64,000 nucleotides of DNA from Treponema sp. (GTDB lineage: Bacteria > Spirochaetota > Spirochaetia > Treponematales > Treponemataceae), in contig JAILRG010000132.1 in NCBI GenBank assembly GCA_024698325.1, forward strand, positions 1-64,000, in the 5' to 3' direction. This document shows positions 32,466 through 41,648 of this stretch, piece after piece. The first letter of the stretch is position 1. Each line of letters begins with the position of its first letter. A program made the translations under genes and the position numbers. A model generated the notes under the pieces. It made no database searches and was not told the origin of the DNA. It was given only the letters and a program-made list of their open reading frames with translations.

Positions 32466-33239
32466 ATGACCTATCTTTTTTTTGACATTGAATGCGCCAA
32501 CAGCTTTGGCGGCATTGGTAAAATCTGTTCCTTTGGCTATGTGCTCTGTACCGCAAAGACAGACGGAAGCGGCTTTGAAATCATCGAGACGGACGACATT
32601 CTGACAAACCCGAAGGCGCCCTTTGACTGGTACCTCTTTAAGCCCGGCTCAAAATGCACCCTCAGCTACAGCCGCGACGAATACCAAAAGCAGCCAGACT
32701 TTTCCCAGTTCTACAGCACCATAGCATCACTGCTGTCGGCCCCGGACCGTCTTGTAGTAGGCTTTGGCTGCAAGAACGACATCTCTACCATTATTTGCGA
32801 GTGCATCCGCTACCGGCTTCCTCTGCCAGACTTTAGCTGCTACGATATTCATCCCCTGCTGGAGCAGCACTACCAGAGCCAGGGCGGCTTAAGCGCCTTT
32901 GTGCAGGCGCTCGGCATAGACACTGAGGACATGGCCTTTCACGACAGCCGGGCGGACGCCTATTTTACGATGAAAGTGACTGAAAAACTCATGCAGGATG
33001 CATCCAGGCCTGTCCACGAATTAGTCGCCGGCCTCGCTCCACTTACAAGCGCACAGGCACTAAAAGACCTGCAAAAAAAGCTCTATAAAAAATGGTGCGA
33101 AAACGAAGAAAAGCGCAAGGCCGAAAAAGCCTCCCGCGAAGGAGAAACGTACAAGCCGCGCCGTATTTCAAAACGAGTGACGGTGCCAGACTGGTTTGAC
33201 TGGCAGAAAGCGTTTGATAATCAACTAAAAGCCCACTAG
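32466..33239 (+). CDS. DEDD (DnaQ-like) 3'-5' exonuclease family protein
   Basis: FFDIECANSFGGIGKICSFGYV; VGFGCKNDISTI; AFHDSRADAYFTMKVTEKLM. Confidence 0.8.
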   Translation: MTYLFFDIECANSFGGIGKICSFGYVLCTAKTDGSGFEIIETDDILTNPKAPFDWYLFKPGSKCTLSYSRDEYQKQPDFSQFYSTIASLLSAPDRLVVGFGCKNDISTIICECIRYRLPLPDFSCYDIHPLLEQHYQSQGGLSAFVQALGIDTEDMAFHDSRADAYFTMKVTEKLMQDASRPVHELVAGLAPLTSAQALKDLQKKLYKKWCENEEKRKAEKASREGETYKPRRISKRVTVPDWFDWQKAFDNQLKAH

Positions 33240-33340
33240 GCTTAATTTCCACCAGGCTTACTTACCCGCTCAAATCCTCATTCATTCCTCTTTTTTCCAG
33301 AAACACAGCTGTTTATTTAAAAACCGGCGTAGTTTTTTTG

Positions 33341-33369
33341 TTGACAGAAACTGATAGCACCTCTATCAT
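33341..33369 (+). promoter_or_regulatory. Sigma-70-type promoter of porin/alpha-galactosidase operon
   Basis: TTGACA-N17-TATCAT. Confidence 0.8.
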
Positions 33370-33399
33370 AATTATGAAATTGTGATAGTAGCACTATCA
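33352..33399 (+). promoter_or_regulatory. Two copies of candidate operator TGATAG-N5-CTATCA
   Basis: 33352-33368 TGATAGcacctCTATCA overlapping the -10; 33383-33399 TGATAGtagcaCTATCA just downstream of the predicted TSS; centres 31 bp apart. Confidence 0.85.
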
Positions 33400-33435
33400 G
33401 TTACAAAGTGTTCTGATGACAAAAAGGAGGACTTT

Positions 33436-35364
33436 ATGAAGTTACAGAAAAAAGCTAAACGTGCTGTCACGGCAATTGCAGCACTAACCCTTACAGCCAG
33501 CTTGTCTTTCGGCGAAACATACGAGACGGCAAAGGCGCGCACCCTAAAGACCGACATCGGTGACATTTCGTTCGGCGCCTGGGGCCGGTCAACCTTTGAG
33601 TTCGGCCACCAGAAAACCAGCACAAAGATTACAGCGGATACAACCGCGACAGGAGATACGGCTGTAGCGGCAGGTGTCGCAGCCATGGCCGACTATGCCG
33701 TCAACGACGGGTCTGTAACACTGGCATCCGACGGCAGCAATGCAGAAGCTTATGCAACCGCAGTCGGCACCTACGCAGGCAGCGCATGGGCAACAGCAAA
33801 TCAGTCTGATTTAACAACCGCCGCTATAAACGCAGGCTGCACCACACCAGAACAAATCACAGCCTATATTACAGAAGCTGCTACACAATACGGCACTAAA
33901 ATCGGGAATGCTGTTGCAGGCACTATACTCGTCAACACCCTCAAAGGCCTTGAAAGCGACACCACCGACAGCTCAAACTACGCGGCCTTAGAGCCGGACT
34001 GGAGCTATGGAAACCGCATCGGCTTCTGGATTATCGGCCGCACGCCGGATCAGAAATTCGGCTTTGACTTCAACCTGGACGCCGACGGCCGCGCCCTCTT
34101 CGTCCACAAACTCTGGGACTCAACAGAGTCAACAGCAGACACCAACTACAACGAAGACGGAAAATATGCGGTTGCCATCGGCGATCAGGCAAAAATCTGG
34201 GGACTTTTCGACAATCCGCTTTTCCAGACAAAAGTAGCCTTTGGCCGCATGCGCGAAAACGAGCTTCGCGGCTCCATCGGTGACTTTGGCCAGCGGGAAT
34301 CCAGCGACGTAAAATCAGAAGACGACATCTTCCAGGAAATCTGGACTGCCACCGGCCTCTTTGCATCAGTCAAAGGCAATGCAGACTCTCCGCTCAAGGG
34401 CTTTTACGCAAACGCCGCCATTGACCCGGCAGGCTTAATCGGCATTACCACCGATTCAGACGGAAACCTCGTGTCCTCCAGCGACAGTGCAACCGATACC
34501 GACAGCTCAAAGGCCGTCAGCCTCTACAAGGCAGTGCGGAACTTTCAGGGCGGCGTCGGCTACACCATCCCCGGCATCGCGCAGATTAAAGCCCAGTACT
34601 GGGGCGACTCCATCGACACGTCAAACTACCGCTATGCCACCAGCACCTATGCAAGTGCCCGCAGCGCCGGTTACGGCTTAAACGACTACTACGGACGCAT
34701 GGAGTTCGGCATCGACTGGCTTGGCTTTATGGGCGGCGCCACGTCTATTGGCGAAGTTGACCTTGAAAAAACTCCCAACGCAAGCCTGATTGAGCTTGGC
34801 TTTAAGGTGCCGATTGTCACCGACAGCAACCTGCGTGACTACGACCCGGAAAAATTCTACAACTGGTACAGCTGCCTTGGCACTCTGGGCGTCATTCAGA
34901 AGGGATTCATCATGTACAAGGGCCACATCTGGGGCGGACAGGGCGTTTCAAATCTGTCACAGTACTCCTACGGTCTGGTCAACATGAACAAGGGTGACGG
35001 CGCCGACATCTTCATGGCGGGCATCGACTTCCTGACCGAAATCTGCATCAATCCGTTCGGCAAGCAGAACCTGTTCCTCGGCCTTTCCGGTAACTACAAC
35101 ATCACCTCTGCCAGCGCAGACGGCAAGATGACCTACAGCGGCGCCACCGTCAGCATTTCCGACCTGGAGCTGCTCCAGCACAAGTTCGCCGCAGAGCTGT
35201 ACTTTAAGAAAACCTTTGCCGCAAACAACTTCATGTTCGCCGGTATCGCAGGCAACTGGTCAATCCAGACCCTTAATGGAACGGTTAGCGACGTTGTAGA
35301 CTTAAGCTACAAGTCAACAAGTCAGAAGTTCTACATGCCGATTGGCGTAGAGCTGTTCTTCTAA
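33436..35364 (+). CDS. Putative outer-membrane porin-like beta-barrel protein
   Basis: Signal peptide MKLQKKAKRAVTAIAALTLTASLSFG; ISFGAWGRSTFEFGHQ; repeated amphipathic strands; C-terminal YMPIGVELFF ending in aromatic residues. Confidence 0.75.
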   Translation: MKLQKKAKRAVTAIAALTLTASLSFGETYETAKARTLKTDIGDISFGAWGRSTFEFGHQKTSTKITADTTATGDTAVAAGVAAMADYAVNDGSVTLASDGSNAEAYATAVGTYAGSAWATANQSDLTTAAINAGCTTPEQITAYITEAATQYGTKIGNAVAGTILVNTLKGLESDTTDSSNYAALEPDWSYGNRIGFWIIGRTPDQKFGFDFNLDADGRALFVHKLWDSTESTADTNYNEDGKYAVAIGDQAKIWGLFDNPLFQTKVAFGRMRENELRGSIGDFGQRESSDVKSEDDIFQEIWTATGLFASVKGNADSPLKGFYANAAIDPAGLIGITTDSDGNLVSSSDSATDTDSSKAVSLYKAVRNFQGGVGYTIPGIAQIKAQYWGDSIDTSNYRYATSTYASARSAGYGLNDYYGRMEFGIDWLGFMGGATSIGEVDLEKTPNASLIELGFKVPIVTDSNLRDYDPEKFYNWYSCLGTLGVIQKGFIMYKGHIWGGQGVSNLSQYSYGLVNMNKGDGADIFMAGIDFLTEICINPFGKQNLFLGLSGNYNITSASADGKMTYSGATVSISDLELLQHKFAAELYFKKTFAANNFMFAGIAGNWSIQTLNGTVSDVVDLSYKSTSQKFYMPIGVELFF

Positions 35365-35423
35365 TATAAACAGACATCCATGCCTTTTTCTGCTTACCGG
35401 CAGCAAGAGGCACAGATCAACAC

Positions 35424-35457
35424 CCCCTGCGGGTCGTAACGCCGCAGGGGCTTTTTT
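35424..35457 (+). terminator. Intra-operon terminator after porin gene
   Basis: CCCCTGCGG-gtcgtaacg-CCGCAGGGG-CTTTTTT, immediately before GH36. Confidence 0.85.
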
Positions 35458-35469
35458 GGGGAGAGGGAG

Positions 35470-37365
35470 ATGAGTAAACCCGTCATATCAGAATACCGCT
35501 ACCATGGTACCGGCGAGACAGATACAGAAAACCGCGTCATTGACATTCTTTCGATACAGGCGCTCATTGATTCAGCGGTAGACGCCGGGGAAAAAGACTT
35601 CTGTAAAAAACATGATTTTGCCTTTTACGGTTCCGGCTGGCAGAGCTGGGGCTTTGGCGGCGAGCTTGATCCCGGCTGTTTTCAGAAACGCTATATTCCG
35701 GTCGTGCCCCAATGGAAGCAGTATTTTTCGATTCCCGGCGTACAGAAAAAAATTGTCCGCAGAAAAAAGCTCTTACAAGGCTCTTTTTTCATCTATTTGC
35801 GCTGGAACAATGGCGGCAAAAACACCTGGCTTTGCATCGCTTCTGTAGGAAACGTCCACACGCAGAAAGACGGACAAAAACCACTCCCACCCGTAAACTT
35901 TTTTGTAGACCGCAAAAGACGCGAAATTGTCTGCACCGCCTGCACCGACGGCAAACGATGGGAAGCAGACGAGCTTATGGCGCAGATTGCTGTTTTTTCA
36001 GCAGCAGATTTCTTTACGCTGCGCGATACGACGCGAAATCTCTTTGCTGAAGACAGAAACGCGCGGTTTGGCTCGCTTGCCTTTTTGAATACACGCGCTG
36101 ACAGCACACTGATTCGCACTGGCGGCTGGGAAAGCTGGTACAACCACTATGCTGACATCAACCACACGCTTATCGAAGGCGACTTACAGGCCCTCGGCAC
36201 CACCGAAAACCTTATTAAGACAGAGCTGCTTGATGCCAATGCCCCCTGTGTATTTCAGGTAGATGACGGCTGGGAAATTGCATTAGGTGACTGGGATGCC
36301 CGCACCGACCGCTTTCCCGGCGGCATGAAGGCGCTTTCGCAGAGCATCGCAGACAAAGGCTATATTCCCGGACTGTGGATGGCACCCTTTGCAGTTGACT
36401 GGCGGAGCGAAACCGCACGCGCGCACCGCGACTGGATTTTGCGCGGCAACGACGGTAAGCCAATCGCCGCCGGCATGAACCTGCTGTGGGGGGCCAGGTT
36501 CGGTCGTGAGCAGCCCTCACTCCCCTATTCCTACTTCTGTCTGGACCTAAGCCGCGACGACGTTATCGCGCATCTGGACGCGCTTATGGAAAAAGCGGTC
36601 AATGAATGGGGCTTCCGCTACCTGAAGCTCGACTTTCTGTTTGCAGGACTTCTTGCCGGCGCTCATGCAAACGGAGGTGCCGCCTATGAATGGTATGACA
36701 AAGCCGTGCGAACACTCACCCGCCGGACGCGCAACAACAGGGGCGAACCTGTCGCCTACCTTGGCTGCGGCATGCCCTTTGAATCAAGCTTTAACGCATT
36801 CCCGCTTTCCCGCATCGGGCCTGACACAAAAGAAGCATGGGACATCGGCTGGATGAAGCGCGCGCAGTACGAAGCCCGCCCCAGCGCCTTTGCTTCCCTG
36901 CAGAGCACGCTCGGCCATGCATTCTGGGACAACGCGGTGTATATCAACGACCCCGACGTGGTGTTTCTGCGTTACCAGAACATCAGCTTAAACGACAAGG
37001 AAAAACTGTTAATTGCGCTGGTAAACTTTCTCTTTGCAAGCCAGCTTATGCATTCCGATGATCCGGTGCACTTTGATGCAGAAAAAGAAGGCGCCTTTAC
37101 CCAAAAGGTACGCGCATTGTACCGGCAGTTTGACGGCGTTGAATTCGGCCTTGAAAACCTGAACTCGACAAGCTACCGCATTTTCTCCCGAGACGGCGCA
37201 TACGCAGGCTGCATCAACCTGGGCGAAAAACCGGTGACAGTCACAAAGGCAACGCTATGCAAAAGCAAGGAAAAATCGCTTGCAGCAGTGCTGGAATACG
37301 CACAAGAGACCGCTGACAGCTATATATTCGAGCCGCACTCAATTTCAATGTACGCATTAGCCTAA
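35470..37365 (+). CDS. Alpha-galactosidase-like glycoside hydrolase (GH36 family)
   Basis: FQVDDGWEIALGDWDARTDRFPGGMKALSQSIADKGYIPGLWMAPFAV; WGFRYLKLDFLFAG catalytic-Asp motif. Confidence 0.85.
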   Translation: MSKPVISEYRYHGTGETDTENRVIDILSIQALIDSAVDAGEKDFCKKHDFAFYGSGWQSWGFGGELDPGCFQKRYIPVVPQWKQYFSIPGVQKKIVRRKKLLQGSFFIYLRWNNGGKNTWLCIASVGNVHTQKDGQKPLPPVNFFVDRKRREIVCTACTDGKRWEADELMAQIAVFSAADFFTLRDTTRNLFAEDRNARFGSLAFLNTRADSTLIRTGGWESWYNHYADINHTLIEGDLQALGTTENLIKTELLDANAPCVFQVDDGWEIALGDWDARTDRFPGGMKALSQSIADKGYIPGLWMAPFAVDWRSETARAHRDWILRGNDGKPIAAGMNLLWGARFGREQPSLPYSYFCLDLSRDDVIAHLDALMEKAVNEWGFRYLKLDFLFAGLLAGAHANGGAAYEWYDKAVRTLTRRTRNNRGEPVAYLGCGMPFESSFNAFPLSRIGPDTKEAWDIGWMKRAQYEARPSAFASLQSTLGHAFWDNAVYINDPDVVFLRYQNISLNDKEKLLIALVNFLFASQLMHSDDPVHFDAEKEGAFTQKVRALYRQFDGVEFGLENLNSTSYRIFSRDGAYAGCINLGEKPVTVTKATLCKSKEKSLAAVLEYAQETADSYIFEPHSISMYALA

Positions 37366-37378
37366 GGAAGAACACAAC

Positions 37379-38884
37379 ATGGATAAGTCATCAGTCATTT
37401 TTGGAAACCGCATAGACGCGAAAACGCTCCGCAAAGCTGCGGCACAGCAGAAGAAATTCCTCAAGAAGTTCGGCGACGACCGGAATACGCCATATCACTT
37501 AAAGGCTGTCGATAACGACGTTCTTACGCCCGCTTTTGGGGCAAAAGTCCTGGTGCTGACAGACGAGCCGTCGCCCGCGCTTCCGGAAAAAGCAATCATC
37601 ATCGGAAACATCCGCATGGGATTCGGCCATTACCGCATCTCCATGGCAATGGCAAGCGCCGCACATGCGCTCGGCTATACGCCGCTCTGGCTGGACTTAA
37701 ACTCATTCCCAGAGACCACCGGTACAAAAATAATTGCCTGGCAGAATAGACTGTACTCGATGGCAAGCCGCCTGTCGCAAAAATCCCGTCTCTTTAACAA
37801 GCTCGTCTGGGACCCGCTGAACACTGAAGGCTTTAAAAAGCTTACCTACAACGCAGTCGACCAGAAAACCTCAGAGCTTATGACTCCGATTCTGCACGAC
37901 CTTCCGCGCGAAACGCCGTTCATAGCCACCCACGTCTGGCCAAGCCAGGCCGCCATACACGCAGGCTTTACGCATGTCGTAAACGCCATTCCCGATAACT
38001 GGGCAATGGCGCTCCATTTAAGCGAAGGCGCCCGGCACACCGTGCAGACGCCGTCTACCTACCAGAGCTACCGCATGCTCAAAGGCTTTGCCGGCGACAA
38101 AGTACTCACCCCCATGGCTGCAGACGACATCGCCTACACAGGGCAGTACATCGACGACGAGCTGGTGGCAAACATTGAATCAGATTGCAAAATGCGCCTT
38201 GAGCGCCTCTCTTCTCATACCTCTCCTCAGTGCCTTCGGTTCCTCCTGACAATAGGCGGAGCTGGTGCTCAGGGCGATTATTTTGCAAACCTCATACAGA
38301 CGCTTCTGCCATACATCATGGAAAAGCGAGCCTGCCTGTATCTGAACATAGGCGACTACGAAAACATGTGGCAGTTTTTTAAGGAAAAACTCCCCGAGAT
38401 TGTGCCTCTCTCAGAAACGCATTTTAACGACTGGACCGCCACAAAAGCGTTTGCAGAAAAAGCCCTGCGCGCCTCCAGCTCCGAGCCTGAATCGCACGGC
38501 ATTCACGTATTCTGCCACACCGATATTTTCGCGGCCGTCTACGCAACAAACCTGCTGCTCCGCGCAAGCGACGTGCTTATAACAAAGCCGAGCGAGCTTG
38601 CGTTCTATCCGGTGCCAAAGCTGATGATTCAGCATGTAGGCGGACACGAGTGCTGGGGCGCAATCCGCGCGGCAGAACTTGGAGACGGCACGCCCGAATG
38701 CCCGAACCTTGCCTACGCACAAACCATGCTTAAGACATTCATCGAAAGCCCCGACTTGCTCCAGCAGATGAACATGGCTATTATTTCAAACAAAAAAGCC
38801 GGCATCTACAACGGGGCATATCATGCTGTCGAACTTGCAGCCGGCACAAAGGAGAGTAACTATGAGTGGCCAGGTCGTCAGTAA
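37379..38884 (+). CDS. GT-B fold glycosyltransferase-like protein (MGDG synthase/MurG-like N-terminal motif)
   Basis: IRMGFGHYRISMAMASAAHALGYTPLWLDLN resembles the GxGHxxxA motif; SDVLITKPSELAFYPVPKLMI resembles the C-terminal donor-binding region. Confidence 0.6.
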   Translation: MDKSSVIFGNRIDAKTLRKAAAQQKKFLKKFGDDRNTPYHLKAVDNDVLTPAFGAKVLVLTDEPSPALPEKAIIIGNIRMGFGHYRISMAMASAAHALGYTPLWLDLNSFPETTGTKIIAWQNRLYSMASRLSQKSRLFNKLVWDPLNTEGFKKLTYNAVDQKTSELMTPILHDLPRETPFIATHVWPSQAAIHAGFTHVVNAIPDNWAMALHLSEGARHTVQTPSTYQSYRMLKGFAGDKVLTPMAADDIAYTGQYIDDELVANIESDCKMRLERLSSHTSPQCLRFLLTIGGAGAQGDYFANLIQTLLPYIMEKRACLYLNIGDYENMWQFFKEKLPEIVPLSETHFNDWTATKAFAEKALRASSSEPESHGIHVFCHTDIFAAVYATNLLLRASDVLITKPSELAFYPVPKLMIQHVGGHECWGAIRAAELGDGTPECPNLAYAQTMLKTFIESPDLLQQMNMAIISNKKAGIYNGAYHAVELAAGTKESNYEWPGRQ

Positions 38885-39542
38885 ACGGGAAGAAAATAAA
38901 AATGCGCGCATGCAGGCAATCATCGAATGTACATTCGGGCTGTTTGCAGAGCACGGCATTGATCCAATTTCGATGAATGATATCGCTGATAAAGCAAACA
39001 TCGGAGTTGCATCACTGTACCGGTATTTTCTGACAAAAGAGGATCTGGCAATTGCCGTAGCAACCTATGCCTGGAATATCGAAAAGGCAGTCTTTACCGG
39101 CGTTTTTACGTCAGGTGCCTACAATGCGCTTGACGGCTTCCATCAGATACAGGAGCTTCTGGAGATTTTCGAGGATGCACTTGTTACGCAGCGGAGCTTT
39201 TTCAGCTTTGTCTACTATTTTGATGCCTTTATCAAAAAGGAAAACGTAGCGCCGGAACGGCTTCAAGAATACGAAAAAGCCATCAGCGAGACGAACCTGA
39301 TTGTCGTGCGGGCACTTGAAAAAGGCATTGCAGACGGCTCCATCTCTTTCAACGAGTCTGAAAACGAAGTCCTGCATGCGGCAACCACGCAGGAAATGTT
39401 CATCACCATGATGCATTCGCTATTCTGCCTTGCACAGAAGCTTTCCATATCGGGAGAACTGCTTGATCAGGATAAAACGGTGGAAAGCCGCCGGCAGATA
39501 GAAATTTTAATCAATATGATTCTTGTTGCATTAAAAAAATAG
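38862..39542 (+). CDS. TetR/AcrR family transcriptional regulator
   Basis: HTH: RMQAIIECTFGLFAEHGIDPISMNDIADKANIGVASLYRYFLTKEDLAIAVA. Confidence 0.92.
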   Translation: MSGQVVSKREENKNARMQAIIECTFGLFAEHGIDPISMNDIADKANIGVASLYRYFLTKEDLAIAVATYAWNIEKAVFTGVFTSGAYNALDGFHQIQELLEIFEDALVTQRSFFSFVYYFDAFIKKENVAPERLQEYEKAISETNLIVVRALEKGIADGSISFNESENEVLHAATTQEMFITMMHSLFCLAQKLSISGELLDQDKTVESRRQIEILINMILVALKK

Positions 39543-39548
39543 GAGGAA

Positions 39549-41009
39549 TTGATGTTAACCGTAAAAGAAAAACTCAGCTATGGATTGGGCGCTGTCGGTA
39601 AAGACATGGTGTACATGCTTTCTGCAAGCTACATTCTGTACTACTTTCAGGACATTCTGGGCGTTAGCGCGGCTGCAATGGGCGTTATCCTGCTGATTGC
39701 GCGCGTATTCGATGCATTTAACGACCCAATCATGGGCGTTATCGTCGCCAAAACAAAGACTCGCTGGGGAAAATTCCGGCCGTGGCTTTTAATCGGCACG
39801 CTGACAAACGCCGTCATCCTGTACCTGATGTTCGCAGCTCCACCCGCACTTGACGGCGCAGGCTTAGTCGCCTATGCCGCCGTCACCTACATCATGTGGG
39901 GCGTCACCTACACGATGATGGACATTCCCTACTGGTCAATGATTCCGGCATTCACATCCGGCGGCAAAGAACGCGAAGGGCTTACCACGCTTGCCCGAAG
40001 CGCAGCCGGCGTAGGTTCAGCCATCATCTCCATCGCAACCATGATTGTCGTTCCGCTGCTCGGAAAGATGTTCGTCGGAGCTGTTCCTCAGGAACTTGCC
40101 TCGCGCTACCCTGGCCAGCAGTGGATTGAACTGAACGGCTTTAAGTACTTTACGCTCGGAGTTGCCGTGCTGTTCCTGCTGTTCACGGTGATTATGTGCA
40201 TGGCCGTCAAAGAAAAATCATCCGTCAACATGAAGACTGCCAGCGTCAAGGACATGTTCAAGGCGCTTGTCCAGAACGACCAGGCGATGACCGTGGTTTT
40301 TACGATTGTCGTCATCAACATCGCGCTCTACATCACCTCAAACCTGGTGATTTACTTCTTTAAGTACGATTTGGGTGGAGCCGACTGGAACGCAGGCTAT
40401 GCGCTTTTTAACATGGTCGGCGGCGGAACCCAGATTCTTGCCATGATGCTGCTCTACCCGTTCCTGCGAAACGCGCTCAAACTGAACAACATCAAGATTT
40501 TCTATGTGAGCATCTCGATGAGCATCTTCGGCTATGTGGCGCTCCTGGCAATGGCGACGGTCGGCGTAAACGACGTCGTTCCGTTCCTGATTCCGGGCGT
40601 GCTCGTCATGGCAAGCGCCGGCGTGAACAACGTAATCATCACCGTGTTCCTTGCAAACACCGTAGACTACGGCGACTTAAAGAACGGCCGCCGCGACGAA
40701 AGCGTCATTTTCAGCATGCAGACCTTCGTCGTAAAGCTTGCTTCCGGCGTTTCCGCCTTTATCGCATCCATCGCACTGTGCGTACTGAACCTGAAGCAGG
40801 GCGCCGGAGAAGGCATTACCAGCAACATCGACTTTTCGCTCGGCGTTGCCACAAGCTCAAAACTGGGCCTGCGCCTCGTCATGACCGTCATTCCGATTGT
40901 CGTACTGATTTTTGGCGCCCTTATCTTCAAGGCAAAGTTCATCCTGCATGATGAAAAAGTTGCAGAAATCGCATCTGAACTAAAAAAACGCCACAGCGAA
41001 GACGCATAA
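39549..41009 (+). CDS. GPH-family (MelB-like) sugar:cation symporter, MFS
   Basis: LSYGLGAVGKDMVYMLSASYILYYFQDILG; RVFDAFNDPIMGVIVAKTKTRWGKFRPWLLIG; DYGDLKNGRRDESVIFSMQTFVVKL. Confidence 0.92.
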   Translation: MMLTVKEKLSYGLGAVGKDMVYMLSASYILYYFQDILGVSAAAMGVILLIARVFDAFNDPIMGVIVAKTKTRWGKFRPWLLIGTLTNAVILYLMFAAPPALDGAGLVAYAAVTYIMWGVTYTMMDIPYWSMIPAFTSGGKEREGLTTLARSAAGVGSAIISIATMIVVPLLGKMFVGAVPQELASRYPGQQWIELNGFKYFTLGVAVLFLLFTVIMCMAVKEKSSVNMKTASVKDMFKALVQNDQAMTVVFTIVVINIALYITSNLVIYFFKYDLGGADWNAGYALFNMVGGGTQILAMMLLYPFLRNALKLNNIKIFYVSISMSIFGYVALLAMATVGVNDVVPFLIPGVLVMASAGVNNVIITVFLANTVDYGDLKNGRRDESVIFSMQTFVVKLASGVSAFIASIALCVLNLKQGAGEGITSNIDFSLGVATSSKLGLRLVMTVIPIVVLIFGALIFKAKFILHDEKVAEIASELKKRHSEDA

Positions 41010-41039
41010 CAAAACGAGCGTTGCCCCTGATTTAAAAGC

Positions 41040-41507
41040 TCAGGGGAGGATGACTGCCTGGTACGCGTACATACCGAATACGTCTTTCCAGCTGGCGCCG
41101 TCGGTATAGCGAATCTGACGAACATACAGGTCTTCGACAGAAGCGGGCGCGCTCAGAGCGGAATCCATGAACGCTTCCAGCGGCACCGTACACAGCGTCC
41201 TGTCGCCGGGAGCCACCGCCTGTAAGCAGACGGCAGCAGTTTCATCATCAGAAAGAAGGACTCCCTCAGTATCGTACAGGCGGAACACCACCTGCAGGCT
41301 GCGGATTTCCCGGAAACTGTCATTAAAAAGGAAAAACTGCAGTTTTACAGAACGGTTTTCGCCGCCAGCAGTGACAGTCACCTCGTCAATACGGTACGGG
41401 CAGCGGAAAGAAAAAGAGATGCACCCTGTAAAAAGGCTGCAGACGACGGATACCAGCACGCCATAAAACAGATACATGCGCTTCATTTTTACCCCCTTGC
41501 GCTTCAT
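41040..41507 (-). CDS. Small putative lipoprotein, unknown function
   Basis: MKRMYLFYGVLVSVVCSLFTGC lipobox. Confidence 0.65.
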   Translation of the reverse strand: MKRKGVKMKRMYLFYGVLVSVVCSLFTGCISFSFRCPYRIDEVTVTAGGENRSVKLQFFLFNDSFREIRSLQVVFRLYDTEGVLLSDDETAAVCLQAVAPGDRTLCTVPLEAFMDSALSAPASVEDLYVRQIRYTDGASWKDVFGMYAYQAVILP

Positions 41508-41648
41508 CTTTTATATACCCGCAGAAGTGAAGCTTCTTACCTGTTTTGTAAAAAAAATGCGTATTTTTTTTGGGGATTTGTTGTTTTTCTATAGCGTACA
41601 CGCTAAAATAGCGGGAAGCCCGGCGCGGGCACATAAAAAGGTTGTGAC

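Follow-up and report, generated by a model that had tools for sequence, protein, structure and literature searches.

A pair of 17-bp dyads at the promoter of a porin/alpha-galactosidase operon in the window (the whole 64,000-nucleotide stretch of Treponema sp. DNA analyzed here) probably serve as operators for the TetR-family repressor encoded in the operon itself; this repressor would block the promoter until a ligand releases it. We put the probability of this reading at about 0.87; binding, repression, autoregulation and ligand are all things we infer from sequence.

By direct reading of the window, the promoter (TTGACA-N17-TATCAT, 33341-33369, forward strand) is of the sigma-70 type, with TTGACA at 33341-33346, a 17-bp spacer and TATCAT at 33364-33369; with 11 of 12 matches it was the best sigma-70-like site within 33200-41600. 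Operator 1, TGATAGCACCTCTATCA (33352-33368, no strand assigned), overlaps the spacer and the -10 box, the latter consisting of the operator's right arm plus one T. Its arms are only 6 bp long, as the seventh positions (C and T) depart from the consensus T and A. Operator 2, TGATAGTAGCACTATCA (33383-33399, likewise without strand), lies at about +7 to +23 from the predicted start and fits the full consensus with 7-bp arms, TGATAGT-N3-ACTATCA. The initial annotation had described this promoter, two 17-bp dyads with identical arms and a distance of 31 bp between their centers, and each of these elements was found as described.

A genome scan for TGATAG-N5-CTATCA, which that annotation had proposed, returned two perfect matches in the 2.84-Mb genome of the same organism, both in this promoter; they are also the only perfect matches in the 64-kb window, and a reversed control pattern had no match in the genome. 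Under an i.i.d. model a genome would be expected to hold ~0.16 perfect matches by chance, and a pair within 60 bp has an expectation of ~5e-7. The refuting case named in the initial annotation, a common motif unrelated to this regulon, does not apply. Own-genome sites with one or two mismatches were listed and those with one mismatch examined, none of which was at a relevant promoter; the one-mismatch sites considered as further operators (C92, C145) were rejected, being at or inside unrelated ORFs and looking like chance occurrences.

All genes of the operon are on the forward strand. The 642-residue product of the first (33436-35364) matched no Pfam family, and we call it an outer-membrane porin-like protein from its name in the initial annotation, its signal-like N-terminus and the presence of paralogues under the same operator. 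It is followed by a 631-residue melibiase-family (GH36-like) alpha-galactosidase (35470-37365; Pfam PF02065, 7.8e-14), a DUF6937-DUF6938 protein (37379-38884), the TetR-family protein that is the putative binder of both operators (38862-39542) and a MelB-like GPH-family sugar:cation symporter (39549-41009; TIGR00792, 1.5e-98, with a match to the MelB model of 1.1e-102 that is below that model's cut-off). The region does not form one simple, uniform operon, as the gap between the porin and melibiase genes holds a terminator-like hairpin and U run (35424-35457, forward strand; -20.2 kcal/mol, z -1.9). Genes past the porin may therefore be expressed at a lower level or depend on read-through. The consensus scanner that scored the promoter does not report this hairpin. 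The corresponding gap is 24 bp in one relative (G020), and in another (G028) a separate operator is located inside it (L038:5735).

The regulator attributed to the operon by the initial annotation reads from an ATG at 38862, and its residues 20-66 match the TetR_N helix-turn-helix family (PF00440, 5.8e-13, 48.8 bits against a cut-off of 24). An AlphaFold model (pLDDT 91.5) predicted an all-helical TetR fold, and its top Foldseek matches were TetR-family proteins, with alignments spanning almost the whole length; on this domain match and predicted fold we classify it as a TetR-family regulator. The fold search with this model pointed to no ligand class, with FadR-, HapR- and KstR2-like structures scoring alike, and the Tn10 TetR repressor model gave no match to the protein, there being only a weak TetC match far below cut-off.

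We searched the same 200 genomes of the genus for relatives of this TetR and for the exact dyad. Of the 67 genomes with a TetR relative 60 had the dyad, as did 11 of the 133 without one (286 sites; Fisher 1.8e-31, a value that, like the p-value below, assumes independent genomes though the species are related). The control pattern, read backwards, occurred zero or one time per genome. A second test covered 80 named DUF6937 loci from spirochaetes and Clostridia, including Treponema bryantii, Ruminococcus albus, R. flavefaciens, Clostridium bowmanii, Butyrivibrio and Lachnospira. Part of its treponeme loci belong to genomes already covered by the genus test, the Clostridia being new. Where a TetR relative was linked, 27 of 31 loci had the dyad, against 0 of the 49 lacking one (p about 2e-17). 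Since DUF6937 is in all 80 loci, the dyad tracks TetR rather than the metabolic genes. The four TetR-linked loci without a match comprise three on contigs ending near the operon (L189, L192, L194) and one with three tandem one-mismatch sites (L253). The link also survives rearrangement: in Ruminococcus and some Treponema the TetR and DUF6937 genes are divergent, and in one genome (G040) TetR and dyad are present without galA or DUF6937. That the association repeats across phyla, in Spirochaetota and in Clostridia, is a stronger argument than the p-values. The recognition helix of the TetR group, GVA[ST]-x-Y-R...TK, is nearly invariant, with overall identity down to about 30%. The proposal of the initial annotation that the operon's own TetR would bind the dyads and repress the operon is strongly supported by this two-phylum co-occurrence despite changed gene order, and by the almost invariant recognition helix.

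There were exceptions of both kinds in the genus. Seven genomes with a TetR relative have no exact dyad, and in G026 galA lies directly behind another gene, without an operator. Conversely, 11 genomes have dyads and no detected TetR, some of them (G024, G166, G025, G141) carrying 5-10 sites. G024 and G025 are also without DUF6937, and most of the 11 assemblies are incomplete; these genomes may reflect an assembly gap, or a regulator that was lost or replaced. Draft MAGs make up most of the genome set, and this accounts for many of the exceptions, though perhaps not for every one. Among 38 genomes outside the genus the sole match (L175/G062) falls within an ORF, and we took it for a chance occurrence.

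Comparison of 88 distinct treponeme sites found T at the seventh arm base in 77% of half-sites. The TGATAG hexamers of the initial annotation are thus present, but most sites have an arm of 7 bp (TGATAGT), so that the fuller operator reads TGATAGT-N3-ACTATCA. The 31-bp distance between centers had been read as three helical turns, putting two dimers on the same face of the DNA. This geometry is not conserved: paired sites are spaced by 27, 28, 31, 34, 35 or 36 bp in treponemes and by 19-20 bp in Clostridia. Spacing this variable means that the two sites need not keep to one helical phase, and it rules out a same-face, three-turn arrangement as a functional rule. The TTGACA-N17-TATCAT promoter with its overlying dyad is kept in the orthologous porin promoters of G051, G020, G108 and RGIG2619, each with a second dyad downstream; the G022 counterpart has TATCGT and a one-mismatch dyad. 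At promoters where the galactosidase gene comes first, the dyad is usually just past the -10 box instead. In Ruminococcus and other Clostridia we observed two or three operators at 19-bp spacing (L206:7812-7847, L202:7817-7852, L251:4138-4173, L253:7815-7869), often between divergent tetR and DUF6937 genes; such spacing suggests tightly packed dimers.

In the window's own genome the exact sites serve the porin/alpha-galactosidase operon only. Its galT and glpK homologues have no operator nearby (the best site there has at least four mismatches), and its galK homologue is 453 bp from the start of a contig, too near to judge. A wide regulon is visible only in relatives, for which we retrieved the flanks of sites in genomes having more of them, naming genes by Pfam matches and, for the HypA and LacI-like names, by eye from the sequence. 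Of 87 such sites, 78 are within 250 bp upstream of a gene, in DNA that is 87% coding. Their targets include galT (nine genomes), galM and galK (as galT-galM-galK), a galE-like epimerase, two phosphoglucomutase-type genes, a GH35 beta-galactosidase, GH36, MelB and more porins; one operator thus precedes several galactose-use genes in relatives, as expected of a galactose/galactoside regulon. An operon of glycerol kinase (glpK), an FAD oxidoreductase and DUF1667 is a target in seven genomes, and a carboxylesterase with a lipoprotein-like leader is another. Taken together, these site positions suggest that the repressor-operator pair governs a galactose-plus-glycerol regulon in relatives.

A PDB sequence search with the DUF6937 protein gave no match. 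Its predicted structure has the GT-B fold of GT28-like glycosyltransferases, the best structural match being the Arabidopsis galactolipid synthase MGD1 (VIA Z 20.5; 296 residues, 3.8 A), followed by MurG (18.8). We therefore predict a GT-B glycosyltransferase-like protein, whose modeled fold fits a galactolipid theme, with neither function nor direction being read from the fold. Genes for DUF6937/6938 proteins are widespread in rumen Clostridia and treponemes, adjoining MelB-like and galactosidase genes.

In the simplest mechanism, a steric block by one or two dimers, a dimer on operator 1 would cover the -10 box and a second dimer on operator 2 would cover the transcript start, and RNA polymerase would thereby be kept from binding or starting. 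A small molecule from galactoside breakdown would then bind TetR and cause it to leave the DNA, allowing the porin, alpha-galactosidase, DUF6937/6938 protein, TetR and MelB-like symporter to be made. With tetR inside the controlled unit, the repressor would also limit itself, and we propose autoregulation for this reason. The sugar-derived ligand suggested by the initial annotation fits the Leloir pathway, galactosidase and glycerol kinase targets in relatives. Since these targets join galactose and glycerol, galactosylglycerol is a candidate, and galactosylglycerol such as the head groups of plant galactolipids is a plausible natural substrate on the gene content. A broader and more tentative version, which we consider less likely than not, is that Spirochaetota and Clostridia of the rumen and gut share a TetR that detects galactosylglycerols derived from plant galactolipids and runs a dedicated head-group pathway that would comprise the porin, MelB-like uptake, alpha- and beta-galactosidase, the MGD1-like GT-B protein and the Leloir and glycerol enzymes.

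The same repressor and operators could instead respond to free galactose, galactose-1-phosphate or an alpha-galactoside (melibiose, raffinose), to which we give slightly less than an even chance. The operon's GH36-like enzyme and its MelB-like symporter, and the targeting of galT, galK, galM and galE-like genes in relatives, are what such a ligand would predict, but it leaves unexplained the glpK/FAD oxidoreductase/DUF1667 target, the carboxylesterase target and the MGD1-like protein of the operon.

The identity of the binder could also be questioned, in that a different regulator encoded elsewhere, such as a LacI-type galactose repressor, might bind the dyads, TetR being merely a member of the operon. 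The 11 genomes with dyads and no detected TetR would be accommodated by this explanation, as would a LacI-like gene at one GH35 target locus (L151); we nevertheless regard it as improbable, because among the DUF6937 loci the dyad occurs only where TetR is linked, whatever other genes are present, and the link holds across phyla and in the G040 genome, alongside the near-invariance of the recognition helix. Still harder to credit, with a probability we consider close to negligible, is that the dyads are chance palindromes or leader RNA hairpins rather than protein sites. Operator 2 is part of the expected transcript, where it might fold into a weak hairpin; against this, sites over -10 boxes would not be transcribed, the arms are fixed while the spacers vary, and neither genome-wide uniqueness nor co-occurrence with TetR is accounted for.

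Several known systems resemble this one in part. GalR and GalS, galactose repressors of LacI type, repress Leloir and galactoside genes and are relieved by a galactose-related inducer; the same job is proposed here for a regulator with a TetR fold, which belongs to another protein family. In Tn10, paired tetO operators bound by TetR block a promoter, and the hexamer TGATAG/CTATCA is the tetO half-site as well. The window regulator shares the predicted fold and the paired operators, which would likewise block a promoter, whereas the tetO hexamers face the other way (CTATCA-N-TGATAG). In Bifidobacterium, comparative genomics predicted the BgrT regulators, TetR-family proteins for the use of beta-glucosides and beta-galactosides; they are reported for Actinobacteria and two lineages of Proteobacteria, with palindromes of 18-22 nt (PMC4746261). 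Common to BgrT and the present system are a predicted TetR-family control of galactoside hydrolases and MFS transporters via palindromes, and regulons that are local and tied to the gene of the regulator; by the published description of BgrT, the present system differs in its lineages (Spirochaetota and Clostridia), its alpha-galactosidase, its Leloir and glycerol genes and its operator, TGATAGT-N3-ACTATCA. Literature searches on DUF6937, on a Treponema TetR galactose regulon and on rumen galactosylglycerol found no description of any of these. With the Bifidobacterium prediction, TetR control of galactosides is already known in kind; the lineage, operator and regulon described here were not found in the searched literature.

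Few regulators have been mapped in gut treponemes. The analysis adds a predicted one for their sugar use, along with its exact operator and its target genes, and opens the TetR ligand and the role of DUF6937/6938 to direct testing. Should the galactosylglycerol interpretation hold, it would show by what means abundant bacteria of the rumen detect and use the head groups of chloroplast lipids, which account for much of the lipid in grass.

Some targets in relatives are off a purely galactoside theme, namely HypB/flavoprotein/HypA genes and proteins with SpoIIE and HD domains. In several genomes the dyad precedes an operon of HypB-like and FeS-flavoprotein genes with HypA-like and DUF5692 genes at L168:1270-4643, L144:5037-8565 and L188:631-4949.
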